This document shows positions 4,092 to 33,759 of a stretch of DNA of 48,836 nucleotides, piece by piece; position 1 is the stretch's first letter; each line of letters begins with the position of its first letter. The notes under the pieces are model-generated. The model was given only the letters and a program-made list of their open reading frames with translations. It was not told the origin of the DNA and did not search any database. This DNA is from Prevotella sp. (GTDB lineage Bacteria; Bacteroidota; Bacteroidia; Bacteroidales; Bacteroidaceae). The position numbers were made by a program, and so were the translations under genes. The stretch is from assembly GCA_017940545.1 (NCBI GenBank), contig JAGAYI010000047.1, positions 1 through 48,836 on the forward strand. The letters are read 5' to 3'.

Positions 4092-4400
4092 TTAGGGCAT
4101 GCTGAAGAAGAAATAGAGTGCCGCAAAACGGGGTTCCACGCCGTCGGCCTTGCCAATGTAGGCATTGCTGCGGTTGCGAATGGTGCCGTCGCGCTCCACC
4201 TTACCGATGTAGGCATTGCTGCGGTCGCGCACGGTGCCGTCGCTCTCCACCTTTCCCAAATAGGCGTTGCCGCGGTCGCGTATGGTGCCGTCGCGCTCTA
4301 TCTTGCCTATGTAGGCGTTGCTGCCGTTTCTCAGGGTCTGTGCCGTGCACAGTGTTGCTGCCGAAATGAGCATGAGCAACAGTAACAGGATTTTCTTCAT
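4092..4400 (-). CDS. Small secreted protein built of 17-residue repeats
   Basis: A 102-residue protein with a clear signal peptide (MKKILLLLLMLISAATLCTAQ). The mature part is three near-identical 17-residue repeats of the form SNAYIGKxExDGTxRxR (residues 27-77), a fourth half repeat, and a hydrophobic tail, AALYFFFSMP. Each unit alternates a short beta-like NAYIGKV with a turn ESDGT, which suggests a small solenoid or beta-hairpin stack. I do not recognise a function. It lies 24 nt upstream of ettA and 31 nt downstream of relA on the same strand. Confidence 0.75.
   Translation of the reverse strand: MKKILLLLLMLISAATLCTAQTLRNGSNAYIGKIERDGTIRDRGNAYLGKVESDGTVRDRSNAYIGKVERDGTIRNRSNAYIGKADGVEPRFAALYFFFSMP
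4149..4322. repeat. 51-bp tandem coding repeats (3.4 copies)
   Basis: Units at 4322-4272, 4271-4221 and 4220-4170 (read on the minus strand) are 51 bp each, with a partial copy at 4169-4149. They encode the 17-residue repeats of the secreted protein. The copies are very similar at the DNA level, so unit number could change by slippage without breaking frame. Confidence 0.85.
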
Positions 4401-13968: not shown

Positions 13969-15327
13969 GTGAAACACATCATCATTCTTGGCGACGGAAT
14001 GGCCGACCACGCCGTAGAGCGGCTGGGCGGAAAGACACCGTTGCAATATTCCGACAAACCCGTAATGGACCGTCTGGCACGCGAGGGACGCTGCGGCCGG
14101 CTCATCACCGTTCCCGAAGGTTTTCCCCCTGGTTCCGAAGTCGCCAACACCGCCATCCTCGGCTATGACCTCAACAAGGTCTATGAAGGCCGCGGACCGT
14201 TGGAGGCTGCCAGCATCGGCTACGACATGGCCGACGATGACTTCGCCATCCGCTGTAACATCATCACCCTGGAAGACGGGAAAATCATCACCCACAACGG
14301 CGGCAATCTGGAAACTGACGATGCCCGTGTACTCATCGACTACCTCAATGAGACGCTCGCCAAGCCTTTCAACGACCGCGAGGGCTGTGAACGCGTGAAG
14401 TTCATCACCGGCATCCAGTATCGCCACCTGCTCATCATTAAGGGCGGCAACAAGCACATTGTCTGCAATCCGCCCCACGACCACCCCAACGAGCCCTGGC
14501 GTCCCCTCCTCATAAAGCCTGAATCCATCAGTTCTGATTGCCCCGAGCCCAGCAGTCATAATGGTTCTGTAGGCTGTGATTCTGTCGCAGCCCCCCCCAC
14601 AACCCTCACCCCCCAGCAAACGGCCACCCTGCTCAACAACCTCATCCTGCGTTCACAGGAGCTCTTGTCCCGTCACCCCTACAACCTCGCGAAAGCTGCA
14701 AAGGGTGAGCGCCAGGCCAACAGCATCTGGCCATGGAGCGGAGGCTACCGCCCCAGCATGCAGACGCTCATGCAGCAGTACCCCGACATCAAGACGGGAA
14801 CCGTCATCTCGGCTGTAGATCTCATTCAGGGCATCGGACGCTATGCCGGACTGCACATTGTCAAAGTGCCTGGAGCCACCGGACTGGCCAACACCAACTA
14901 CGAGGGAAAGGCCCAGGCTGCCATCGATGCCCTGCAACACGATGACTTCGTCTTTGTACATGTGGAAGCCACCGACGAAGCTGGTCACGACGGAGACCTT
15001 GACCTGAAGATGCGAGCCATTAACTATCTGGACCAGCGACTCATACGTCCCATCATTGAAGCCATAGAGCAGATGAGCGAGCCCGTCTGCATGGCTGTAC
15101 TGCCAGACCACCCCACCCCCGTGGAGTTGCGCATCCACGTCAACGAGCCGGTACCCTTCATCATCTGGCATCGCGGCATACAGCCCGACGCTGTTCAGCA
15201 ATACGACGAGGTTTCCTGCGTCAGCGGCAGCTACGGTCTGCTGCGCCTTGCTGAGTTTATGCACACCTTCATGAACGAAGGAAAACAACGGGATGCCGCA
15301 GAATATAAAAACGTTTTGACCACGTAA
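13969..15327 (+). CDS. Phosphoglycerate-mutase-like (ApgM family) predicted homoserine kinase
   Basis: A 452-residue alkaline-phosphatase-superfamily protein of the archaeal-type cofactor-independent phosphoglycerate mutase family. Metal-site segments are ILGDGMAD, PPGSEVANTAILGYD (Ser 56 likely nucleophile), HVEATDEAGHDGDL and LPDHPTP. Placement between thrA and thrC, with no GHMP-type thrB, indicates the homoserine kinase step; the Bacteroides thetaiotaomicron homologue has been linked genetically to that role. It starts at GTG. Residues about 186-213 (14524-14607) form a Ser/Pro/Thr-rich insert absent from the usual family, which explains the excess over about 400 residues. The last codons and the stop lie inside a 22-bp repeat array. 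Confidence 0.88.
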   Translation: MKHIIILGDGMADHAVERLGGKTPLQYSDKPVMDRLAREGRCGRLITVPEGFPPGSEVANTAILGYDLNKVYEGRGPLEAASIGYDMADDDFAIRCNIITLEDGKIITHNGGNLETDDARVLIDYLNETLAKPFNDREGCERVKFITGIQYRHLLIIKGGNKHIVCNPPHDHPNEPWRPLLIKPESISSDCPEPSSHNGSVGCDSVAAPPTTLTPQQTATLLNNLILRSQELLSRHPYNLAKAAKGERQANSIWPWSGGYRPSMQTLMQQYPDIKTGTVISAVDLIQGIGRYAGLHIVKVPGATGLANTNYEGKAQAAIDALQHDDFVFVHVEATDEAGHDGDLDLKMRAINYLDQRLIRPIIEAIEQMSEPVCMAVLPDHPTPVELRIHVNEPVPFIIWHRGIQPDAVQQYDEVSCVSGSYGLLRLAEFMHTFMNEGKQRDAAEYKNVLTT

Positions 15328-15417
15328 AAGTGCCGTTTTGACTGCGTGGAAGTGCCGTTTTGACTGCGTGAAAGTGCCGTTTTGACTGCGTGAAAGTGCC
15401 GTTTAAATGAGTCAGGA
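15308..15417. repeat. 22-bp tandem repeat array, locus 1
   Basis: Five units in strict 22-bp phase start at 15308, 15330, 15352, 15374 and 15396. On the minus strand the central three read TTTCA (TTCCA in one), then the 8-mer CGCAGTCA, then AAACGGCAC. The first unit is diverged and contains the stop codon of the upstream gene. The last keeps only the AAACGGCAC part. It is the same bipartite family as the arrays at 29591 and 33628. Confidence 0.85.
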
Positions 15418-15457
15418 CTGCATTTTGCGAAAAAACCGTCGGTTGGCGCGGATTTCC

Positions 15458-15509
15458 GTGTGTGCGTGATTGCTACTATACTATATACATGTAGCAATCA
15501 CGCACGCAC
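15458..15509. repeat. Long inverted repeat with 14-nt loop
   Basis: GTGTGTGCGTGATTGCTAC (15458-15476) and GTAGCAATCACGCACGCAC (15491-15509) pair with one G-T wobble over 19 bp, around loop TATACTATATACAT. No T-run follows on either strand, so a simple terminator is not certain. It lies between the homoserine-kinase-like gene and the esterase gene, about 100 bp before the latter. It could be a repetitive palindrome of the genome. Confidence 0.75.
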
Positions 15510-15610
15510 AAAAAACTTTCCGCAGAGCAACCATAGGAACACGAAGAATTGTATGACCCTTTGCAGATACCAATAAGTTTTAGAACCAAAATATCAACTA
15601 TTACAAAACA

Positions 15611-29495: not shown

Positions 29496-29526
29496 TTTGT
29501 GATATTCAAATAAATTCGTACCTTTG
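29496..29526 (+). promoter_or_regulatory. Consensus promoter with no adjacent ORF
   Basis: TTTG (29496-29499), 19 bp, and TACCTTTG (29519-29526) are a full match to the Bacteroidetes promoter. The nearest plausible start codon on this strand is 29853, more than 300 nt away, and that gene has its own -7 box. Confidence 0.75.
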
Positions 29527-29590: not shown

Positions 29591-29678
29591 TTTCACCGCC
29601 CGTTGCTAATACTTTCACCGACCGCTGCTAATACTTTCAGCGGGCGGTGCTATTAGTTTCAGCGGCCGCTGAAACCCA
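29591..29678. repeat. 22-bp tandem repeat array, locus 2
   Basis: Four units start at 29591, 29613, 29635 and 29657. The first two read TTTCA, then CCGCCCGT or CCGACCGC, then TGCTAATAC. The third is TTTCA-GCGGGCGG-TGCTATTAG. The fourth forms the perfect palindrome TTTCAGCGG/CCGCTGAAA (29657-29674). Period and layout equal those of the arrays at 15308 and 33628, but the 9-mer module differs. Confidence 0.85.
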
Positions 29679-29838
29679 GAGACCCCGGCACTCTCTCCCT
29701 CTCTCCCCGGCAGTTTCTCCCTGTTTCCCCGGGGGGGTCTCCCAGAGAGACGGCACCTTCGCCCCCACGAGTCGTTAAAATATACAAAATTTTACACGCT
29801 GGTCTATATACGGCAACTGTTTTTTGCCATTTTTTCAC
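29679..29838. other. Pyrimidine-rich, GC-structured intergenic stretch
   Basis: Between the array and the lipoprotein promoter lies a C/T-rich stretch. GAGACCCC (29679-29686) can pair with GGGGTCTC (29734-29741), and CCCCGGGG lies in between. From 29776 the sequence becomes AT-rich. No ORF with family features was seen on either strand. Together with the promoter, hairpin and array, it makes up the 413-nt gap between the GH25 gene and the next ORF. Confidence 0.45.
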
Positions 29839-29846
29839 TACCTTTG
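29839..29846 (+). promoter_or_regulatory. -7 box of the lipoprotein hydrolase gene
   Basis: TACCTTTG lies 6 nt before ATG 29853. A TTTG exists only 12 bp upstream, so the -33 element is uncertain. If the box is used, the transcript is almost leaderless for this ATG, or translation begins at a later one (29928). Confidence 0.5.
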
Positions 29847-29852
29847 CAGCCG

Positions 29853-31247
29853 ATGAAAGTAACTGTTTGTAATATTTCATATATAACGAGGTGGCTTTGT
29901 CTGAAGGCCACCTTATTTTCTCTATTGATGTCCGTGTTGCTGACCATGGGGACGCTGGCACTCACATCGTGTTCGAAAGACGAGGATTCGCCTGTTGCCG
30001 AAACCGTCGTACCGCCAAAGGACGACAATACGGGCAAAACTGGTGGCGGCGACTCCGACAAAGAAGAAAGCAACCCCGGCGGCGAGACAGAGCCCGGTGG
30101 GGAGACAGAACCCGGCGGGGAGACAGAGCCGGGTGTTGACCCCGGCGAAGGCGAAAGCAGCCGGAAGGCATACATCACCGAGGAGGTCAGATATCCGAAG
30201 TATCCGCTGCTGAAGAACCTGAACTTCGTCTATCCGTCGAAGGGTCCCCTCGGCGAAGACGTCATGCTCTCTGGTACCATCACCATGCGCAGCAACATGC
30301 TGCCGCATGATAAGGCCTGCGGCATCATACTCTATAACCACTATACCGTCTGCCGGGCCGACGAGTGTCCGTCGAAGGGCAAGTTGGACATGCAGAACAT
30401 TCTCTACCTGACAGCCCCCTACCGGAACTTCATCACCGTTTCGGCCGACTACTACGGCTTCGGACAAACCGAGGACAAGATGCAGGCCTACTGCATAGCC
30501 AGCGTGAACGCCCGCGCATCCATCGACGCACTCATAGCCGCCCGCCAGTTGCTGGCCGCAGAGGGCTACACGTGGGACGACGAACTGCTGAACGTGGGCT
30601 ACTCGCAGGGCGGACAGACGGCCATCGGCGTGCTGAAACTGGCCACCGAGGAATACACCGACCTGCGCTTCCGCCGCACCTTGGCCGGAGGCGGTCCCTA
30701 CGACCTGGAGGAGACCTACCGCCAGTACCTTGCCGACGGAGTGGTCAAGCTGCCGTCGGCCGTGGTCAGCATCCTCATGGCCTACAACGAGTACTTCGGG
30801 TTGGGCATTGCTAACGAGCAGCTGTTTAAGGGAACGACACTCGACCACCTGCAGGACTGGTGGCTCAGCAAGCAGTACAGCAGTACTTCGATAGACCTCA
30901 AGATGGGTTCCAGAGACATCACGCAGTTCATTGCGCCACCTCTGCTCGACCTTGACTCTCACGTGTCACGTAGCATGATGGAAGCCTTAGCCCGCGAAAG
31001 CCTGTGCAAGGGCTGGACACCCCGCAAGGATGAAGACATCTTCCTGCTGCACCACAATGCCGACGACATCTCGCCCTCTGAGAACACCCAGCTGCTTTAC
31101 GATTTCCTGAAGGCGCAGGGCGTGGAGCGCGTGGAAATGCAGAAAGCCGACTTCATCACCTTAGGCATTTCTGAGCACATCAGCGGTGCCGTGGCCTTCC
31201 TTACCATGGCTGGCATCTGGATACGCGACAATTACCCGCTTTATTAA
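29853..31247 (+). CDS. Lipoprotein alpha/beta hydrolase (secreted lipase-like)
   Basis: A 464-residue protein with signal anchor and lipobox LTSC (LLTMGTLALTSCSKDED), so it should be lipid-anchored at the envelope. A low-complexity spacer follows, with GGETEP repeated three times, before the globular part. The hydrolase core shows ADYYGFGQTE, nucleophile elbow GYSQGGQTA, and a late HISGA segment that may hold the histidine. This resembles secreted lipase/esterase families; the substrate is unknown. A start at 29928 (MSVLLTMGT) would give a very short signal without basic residues and is less likely. A gene for another secreted protein starts 40 nt downstream. Confidence 0.85.
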   Translation: MKVTVCNISYITRWLCLKATLFSLLMSVLLTMGTLALTSCSKDEDSPVAETVVPPKDDNTGKTGGGDSDKEESNPGGETEPGGETEPGGETEPGVDPGEGESSRKAYITEEVRYPKYPLLKNLNFVYPSKGPLGEDVMLSGTITMRSNMLPHDKACGIILYNHYTVCRADECPSKGKLDMQNILYLTAPYRNFITVSADYYGFGQTEDKMQAYCIASVNARASIDALIAARQLLAAEGYTWDDELLNVGYSQGGQTAIGVLKLATEEYTDLRFRRTLAGGGPYDLEETYRQYLADGVVKLPSAVVSILMAYNEYFGLGIANEQLFKGTTLDHLQDWWLSKQYSSTSIDLKMGSRDITQFIAPPLLDLDSHVSRSMMEALARESLCKGWTPRKDEDIFLLHHNADDISPSENTQLLYDFLKAQGVERVEMQKADFITLGISEHISGAVAFLTMAGIWIRDNYPLY

Positions 31248-33617: not shown

Positions 33618-33652
33618 AAAGTGCCGTTTTCACCAGGTGAAAACGGCACTTT
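33618..33652. repeat. 35-bp perfect inverted repeat at the start of array 3
   Basis: AAAGTGCCGTTTTCACC (33618-33634) and GGTGAAAACGGCACTTT (33636-33652) are exact reverse complements around a single A. It lies between two convergent genes and could act as a terminator, though the downstream strand has only TTT followed by C. Confidence 0.9.
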
Positions 33653-33759
33653 CATATTGTCTAAACGGCACTTTCATATTGTCTAAACGGCACTTTCATA
33701 TTGTCTAAACGGCACTTTCACAGCGTCTAAACGGCACCCTTCAGCAGGTGAAGATGGCG
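33628..33759. repeat. 22-bp tandem repeat array, locus 3
   Basis: Units start at 33628, 33650, 33672, 33694, 33716 and 33738. The first is TTTCA-CCAGGTGA-AAACGGCAC. The next three are identical (TTTCA-TATTGTCT-AAACGGCAC). The fifth has 8-mer CAGCGTCT. The sixth is diverged. The 9-mer AAACGGCAC and TTTCA are shared with the array at 15308, more than 18 kb away. Confidence 0.92.

Follow-up and report, generated by a model that had tools for sequence, protein, structure and literature searches.

Three arrays with a 22-bp period

The window, by which we mean the whole analysed stretch of 48,836 nucleotides of a Prevotella sp. contig, carries three tandem arrays with a period of 22 bp. These and the features adjoining them are the following:

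15308..15417, minus strand: array 1, type A units AAACGGCACTTTCACGCAGTCA, period 22
15453..15514, no strand: long hairpin adjoining array 1, with 24-nt arms that are 88% complementary (RNA z -6.5 / -8.0)
29519..29526, plus strand: TACCTTTG, -7-like box upstream of array 2
29591..29678, plus strand: array 2, type B units TTTCACCGNCCGYTGCTAATAC, the last unit with a reversed core
29657-29674: palindrome TTTCAGCGGCCGCTGAAA within array 2
29683..29743, plus strand: second stretch of 22-bp period (CCCCGGCAGTTTCTCCC...) directly 3' of array 2, part of type B
33618..33652: perfect inverted repeat opening array 3, with 17-nt arms (33618-33634 / 33636-33652) and a 1-nt gap
33628..33759, plus strand: array 3, type A units TTTCATATTGTCTAAACGGCAC, period 22, three identical copies

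The positions and the period given in the initial annotation were borne out by inspection of the sequence and by TRF, which called period 22 at 15312-15404 (4.2 copies, 92% matches), 29591-29671 (3.7 copies, 83% matches) and 33641-33737 (4.4 copies, 96% matches). The pattern TTTCA-N17-TTTCA-N17-TTTCA, with at most one mismatch, has six matches in the window and none in 100 dinucleotide shuffles. Array 3 contains TTTCATATTGTCTAAACGGCAC three times in direct succession from 33650, as had been observed, and the 9-mer held to be common to the first and third arrays is indeed shared (AAACGGCAC). The perfect inverted repeat at its start indicates that array 3 opens with a reversed unit.

Other parts of the first description need revision. 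The three loci do not form one family: arrays 1 and 3 are of the AAACGGCAC type, and array 2 is a separate element with a GC-rich core. The proposed unit layout of TTTCA, a variable 8-mer and a fixed 9-mer holds for arrays 1 and 3, with two units of array 1 reading TTCCA / TTTTA at the TTTCA position, and fails in relatives, where the constant and the variable parts change. The arrays had been called intergenic; this does not strictly apply to array 1, whose first 20 bases, by the annotated coordinates, overlap the 3' end of the ORF 13969-15327 of the phosphoglycerate-mutase family. Positions 15308-15327 provide the stop codon and the last codons of this phosphoglycerate mutase-like ORF, the end of which may have been altered by the element. 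A hairpin and spacer like those at 15453..15514 lie, by eye, beside the array on another contig of the assembly (C13).

Two further tandem repeats are present in the window, one of 51 bp (3.5 copies, 4148-4324), a multiple of three which overlaps listed ORFs, and one of 18 bp, CCCGGCGGGGAGACAGAG (GC-rich, 3.1 copies, 30075-30130), inside the ORF 29844-31247 as listed. A tRNA search of the window found none.

The lattice in the genome, the genus and beyond

The assembly that contains the window comprises 2.2 Mb in 65 contigs and is about 70% complete. Searched over this assembly, TTTCA-N17-TTTCA-N17-TTTCA gave 25 matches versus six for the reversed pattern, AAACGSCRCTTTCA gave 26 versus none for its control, and AAAC repeated three times at 22-bp steps gave 82 versus 23 reversed, where the reversed pattern may itself match arrays. 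The expectation that a scan would reveal more arrays was confirmed both here and in related Prevotella. Period 22 is common to many unit families of the assembly, namely AAACGGCACTTTCACGCAGTCA, AAACCATAGGTTTTCCTTACCT, AAACTGGGAGAAACTGCCGGGG, AAACGGTTGGAAAACCGTAGTC, AAACGATTGTCTGACTTCCGTC and AAACGGTCCCACGGAGGGACCA, and the array on contig C24 mixes several of them on a single lattice. Beyond the array the flanks are alike, by eye, in three pairs of loci (C9/C13, C31/C37 and C24/C53), and at some loci the arrays sit inside longer dispersed elements. The AAACTGGGAGAAACTGCCGGGG family, with AAAC 10 and 12 bp apart, is found close to contig ends in this genome, G000 (C52:71-140, C54:65-112, C60:65-112, C53:33789-33858 and C13:10950-10997), which suggests that 22-bp repeats may break assemblies; the arrays would be poor species markers until they are understood.

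In the genus the feature most often found is not TTTCA but A/T triplets on a 22-bp lattice. The skeleton (AAA-N7-TTT-N9)x3 is present in 87 of 150 genomes, that of the window included, with up to 503 matching windows in one genome, and has no match in the other 63. The letters of N7 and N9 vary between species. The TTTCA 22-bp pattern occurs in 63 of the 150 genomes and the palindromic TTTCA-N5-TGAAA-N7 (up to two mismatches) in 38, in both cases including the window's own. Array 3 reads AAA-N6-TTT-N10 and is thus one base off the strict lattice; arrays 1 and 3 are near rather than strict members, and no array of the window is among the matches listed for its genome in the exact skeleton search. 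One genome, G120, has 293 skeleton matches and none reversed. The reversed polarity is enriched in others (0 versus 31 in G008 and, for TTTCA-N5-TGAAA-N7, 0 versus 106 in G145), so that both polarities of the lattice exist and the reversed pattern, being equal to the opposite polarity, is no clean negative control; a run of four A or of four T fits either polarity.

At the level of the phylum, a slightly longer skeleton matched 11 of 395 genomes, of which by eye about four hold true arrays (G000, G543, G387, G286) and the other seven resemble AT-rich singles. A four-unit scan of 84,980 species returned at least 119 stretches; among the 80 matches listed, six bear names from outside the Bacteroidota and 74 names from within this phylum, for the most part those of Prevotella, its segregates and Bacteroides. 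Metagenome-assembled genomes named outside the Bacteroidota in which a lattice of varied units was seen are L236, L270 (Treponema), L258 (Spirochaetales) and L203 (Candidatus Excrementavichristensenella), and these may reflect misbinning or transfer. Homogeneous tandem repeats account for the matches of L226 (Rhizobium sp.) and L271 (Psychrobacter sp.). Marinilabiliaceae bacterium JC017 (L214:1353-1433) keeps the 9-base block CTTTACTAG/C constant, and here it is the block of 7 bases that varies. A viral contig (L385:11706-11962) carries a long 22-bp array on this lattice, in which the units resemble AAAATAGAGAATTTCCTAAATG and are almost uniform. An IMG/VR contig (L378) has a copy with arms and units of the P. 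falsenii type; it belongs either to host DNA at the flank or to a prophage region.

For a pattern-free check, one stretch of at most 20 kb was taken from each of 20 genomes, three of these stretches being short (340, 1001 and 11435 bases). Between periods 13 and 60, TRF rows of at least 2.5 copies peak at 22, with ten rows from six stretches; lower counts were obtained for period 24 (five rows), 15 (four), 44 (three), 23 (two), and 20 and 21 (one each). Below 13, period 10 reaches 11 rows, comparable to 22, and period 11 six. Several of the unselected 22-bp units have no A/T skeleton, an example being an array in G024, a genome without skeleton match; array 2 of the window likewise has none. 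Ten rows at period 22 were counted in 21 stretches of G120. Twenty stretches from other genera gave five rows at 21 and three at 22, two of the latter being one array and the third coming from the 20-kb G387 stretch, which had been chosen for its array. Distances from AAA to AAA outside ORFs show a broad peak at 20-22 in the genus sample (151, 150 and 154) and sharp peaks at 22 and 44 in G120.

Spacing, possible mobility and folding of the arrays

Strong support for a constraint on spacing rather than letters comes from P. lacticifex, in which the 13-bp palindrome AAACGGMCCGTTT has 239 exact sites and its control none. Spacings were counted for 40 of the 239 sites, over up to 406 kb and on both strands. 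Under 1 kb they are 22 (16 times) and 44 (three times) and nothing else, the other 20 exceeding 6.7 kb. Downstream of 31 distinct sites, at offsets of 14-60 and with up to two mismatches, the palindrome recurs only at 22 (18 cases) and 44 (nine cases). Of 23 spacers between sites 22 differ, with a leaning to YRS-N3-SYR, and within the spacer it is the first and the last step at which YR occurs most often (0.49; 161 sources, both orientations counted). Fixed spacing with free spacer sequence is what phased sites should display, and the combination of exact 22/44 spacing with differing spacers indicates that it is the spacing, not the sequence, which is held constant. In the Marinilabiliaceae array mentioned above the constant and variable blocks are the opposite of those in P. 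lacticifex.

These data bear on whether the arrays are neutral minisatellites, produced by slippage, with 22 bp as an inherited accident of the ancestor. Homogeneous arrays such as array 3 and the G075 units are what slippage would leave, and tandem repeats of 41, 23 and 22 nt are on record for P. gingivalis W83, as far as the accessible part of that report goes (PMC4596501). Slippage does not account well for adjacent spacers that differ while the period stays exact, for the many unit families of one genome that share period 22, or for the excess of 22 over the neighbouring periods 20, 21 and 23 in the 20-stretch sample; P. lacticifex also leans toward what would speak against slippage, a spacing that is fixed even where motif and spacers betray no common origin. 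We give this explanation little credence.

In several genomes the lattice is the core of a larger element. In G120 six units lie within an element that by eye spans about 390 bp and has arms of its own. One arm sequence has 73 copies at up to three mismatches, and the element ends are of GTCAAA type, with GTCAAA/TTGAC palindromes. Thirty of the 73 loci, all exact in the arm, were fetched and after a length filter 29 copies, picked by arm and not by core, were aligned. The A/T skeleton is better conserved than the rest of the core, with an identity of 0.958 compared with 0.80 for N7 and 0.857 for N9 (flank 0.864), AAA/TTT triplets of arms and flanks also being well kept in these 29 copies (0.927). 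Indels number one in 132 bp of core, 17 in 157 bp of right arm and none in 104 bp of left arm. In P. falsenii, the sequence common to eight aligned copies measures by eye about 190 bp and includes a core made up of four 22-bp units. The arms differ among the species compared, and no flank motif was found in all groups, enrichments being modest against a background that included coding DNA.

The arrays are mostly intergenic. Gene calls were made by a crude longest-ORF method, by which none of 17 arrays in 417 kb of G120 is within a predicted ORF and two touch an ORF end; six are in divergent, six in tandem and five in convergent position. For 83 arrays in 80 named loci the positions were tandem in 35, convergent in 19, divergent in nine, at an edge in 11 and inside an ORF of at least 100 aa in nine, and for 17 arrays of P. 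lacticifex tandem in seven, convergent in five, divergent in three and inside an ORF of at least 100 aa in two. Per kb of intergenic DNA, G120 has 0.64 arrays in divergent and 0.66 in convergent regions and the named loci 0.49 versus 1.02; as these densities disagree, there is no steady preference for promoters or terminators.

Copies with shared arms raise the question of whether the arrays are simply selfish elements resembling miniature inverted-repeat transposable elements (MITEs), without function for the host, in which the lattice would answer a need of the helper transposase, such as phased sites, and the arrays would be inherited with the element. The 73 arm copies, the shared body and the GTCAAA-type ends in G120 agree with this, as does the common sequence of the P. 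falsenii copies, and the BrickBuilt repeat of Porphyromonas, treated below, is reported to be a MITE whose core is tandem (PMC4596501). Against it, the core lattice is common although arms differ between species and have no universal flank motif, and the P. intermedia repeat PINSR is reported, in what is accessible of its description, without terminal inverted repeats (PMC4755523). A transposase survey, which covered the Y1 family, found Y1_Tnp in 88 of 150 genus genomes. The Y1 (RAYT/IS200) transposase is absent from six of the eight array-richest genomes (G084, G017, G120, G058, G078 and G039) and present in the array-rich G006 and G140 and once in the genome of the window, which weakens it as a general driver. 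Overall we consider purely selfish elements unlikely, if worth keeping in sight.

Array 2 stands apart. Its terminal 32 bases, at up to three mismatches, occur nine times in the genome of the window and in none of the other 149 of the 150 genus genomes searched. The nine type B copies consist of three or four GC-rich units, TTTCAGCGGCCGCTGAAA and then the second stretch of 22-bp period, one copy having a changed base in TTTCAGCGGCCGCTGAAA. The box TACCTTTG at 29519..29526 resembles the Bacteroidetes -7 box, consensus TAnnTTTG, and TAnnTTTGC is found upstream in nine of nine aligned type B copies of this genome. Array 2 folds as a single long imperfect hairpin (z -5.1 / -6.0 as RNA, -5.05 as single-stranded DNA) and has no predicted curvature (z about -0.3). 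We read it as a promoter-led hairpin element which may act as RNA.

It could be argued that all the arrays act as RNA, as transcript hairpins which stabilise 3' ends or stop transcription or as small RNAs, and type B with its upstream box is where this is most plausible. Arrays of four species also fold below their shuffles (mean z -2.9, -4.6, -4.7 and -6.8), as does array 3 (z -3.4 / -4.0). Array 1 folds no better than shuffles (z 1.0 / 0.5), the orientation of genes around arrays is mixed, and Rfam at gathering thresholds gives no match in the window. Above all, flipping or permuting blocks leaves the RNA energy unchanged in five of five sets, none of them of type B (mean z -0.40 to 0.82), so that the low energies call for nothing beyond the dyads of the single units. 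Pairing between units carries no sign of selection, and RNA structure is weakened as a general constraint; for the arrays as a whole we hold an RNA-level role to be improbable. In P. falsenii units 1 and 3 seemed to pair with each other, which by eye is not systematic in further copies.

For array 1 the predicted curvature exceeds that of its shuffles, with z 2.1 if a turn is set to 10.5 bp and 4.0 if it is set to 11 bp; for array 3 it is raised at 11 bp per turn only. These values depend on the wedge parameters used, and for arrays selected by skeleton the test is partly circular. Some of the curvature, folding and permutation sets consisted of 20 or 40 arrays.

The reading we favour, at a probability of slightly under one half (about 0.45), is that the arrays are DNA-level cores of MITE-like, mostly intergenic elements, which offer either helically phased protein sites or bent DNA to a putative reader protein. 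The arrays would act most likely as double-stranded DNA. The usual core is a lattice of 22-bp units, each two turns at 11 bp per turn, in which AAA and TTT triplets alternate at distances of about 10 and 12 bp and the short block is often the centre of a dyad; the initial suggestion that a unit corresponds to two helical turns is supported by these data. As every unit shows the same face, a dimeric and species-matched DNA-binding or DNA-bending protein, which we infer, could load side by side. Alternatively, the array might be a bent segment for wrapping by a general nucleoid protein or by gyrase. The elements would spread as wholes and come to rest at sites where the damage is small; that the host gains from them is likewise conjectural.

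A more far-reaching version, which we regard as a long shot, makes the arrays a family-wide bacterial counterpart of satellite DNA, in which phased intergenic arrays would organise or insulate the chromosome through a fast-evolving, species-matched, putative DNA-binding protein. If true, geometry would be conserved while sequence and reader change between species. The shared geometry also suggests a search target, namely a protein, or some process of DNA wrapping, by which two helical turns are counted. This would bear on how the chromosome is organised in bacteria that form a dominant group in humans and in the rumen.

Relation to known repeats

In CRISPR arrays the repeats measure about 23-50 bp and are separated by unique spacers, each about 25-45 bp long. 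The view that CRISPR does not fit was upheld, the units here being 22 bp long, head-to-tail, with variable parts of 8-9 bp. REP, BIME and REPIN sequences, which go with RAYT, are dispersed intergenic palindromes in clusters, in which longer REPs alternate. The arrays are like them dispersed, intergenic and palindromic and differ in the tandem 22-bp lattice and in the absence of Y1 from most of the richest genomes. Sites of Tn7-type transposases, another candidate, measure 22 bp. A likeness of TTTCA..TGAAA to parS was set aside, as the half-site spacing differs. Intergenic DNA of bacteria also has A/T runs phased with the helix, known as A-tract periodicity, with a period of about 10-11 bp (PMC516772, PMC3372288, PMC3940949). 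That signal is diffuse and statistical, while the arrays are discrete, with a 22-bp unit and species-specific letters.

In the literature searched, which reached few subscription journals, no description of a genus-wide 22-bp lattice was found, and a paper on repeats of P. gingivalis (PMC5771137) contributed nothing further. The initial statement that no description was known is in part wrong, since PINSR is probably one species' version of the lattice. PINSR of P. intermedia is 188 bp long and intergenic, with 177 copies in OMA14 and 184 in strain 17, and is PCR-positive in P. falsenii; the accessible text makes no mention of a 22-bp period or of relatives beyond a single clade (PMC4755523). 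The P. falsenii copies fit PINSR in length, a likeness judged by its published description, and the units of the window differ from those of P. falsenii.

BrickBuilt of Porphyromonas gingivalis, from the sections of the report available, is a dispersed intergenic MITE with a leader, short tandem repeats and a tail, has promoter activity, is reported in P. gingivalis and P. gulae with weak translated tail matches in two Prevotella species, and has inverted-repeat ends matching IS5-family elements (PMC4596501). Its unit, in the same sections, is the 23-nt AGAYCATARTATCCTCTCRTRTG without an AAA/TTT lattice, in distinction to the period of 22 and the other units found here, and it is a cousin in design of the Prevotella arrays. 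Dispersed repeats of this group have thus been described, in the printed accounts to hand, by species or by clade, as with PINSR and BrickBuilt. Within the literature searched the class appears new as a generalisation, single members being in print (PINSR probably, BrickBuilt in design), and because one geometry is shared under different letters these repeats could be studied as one class.
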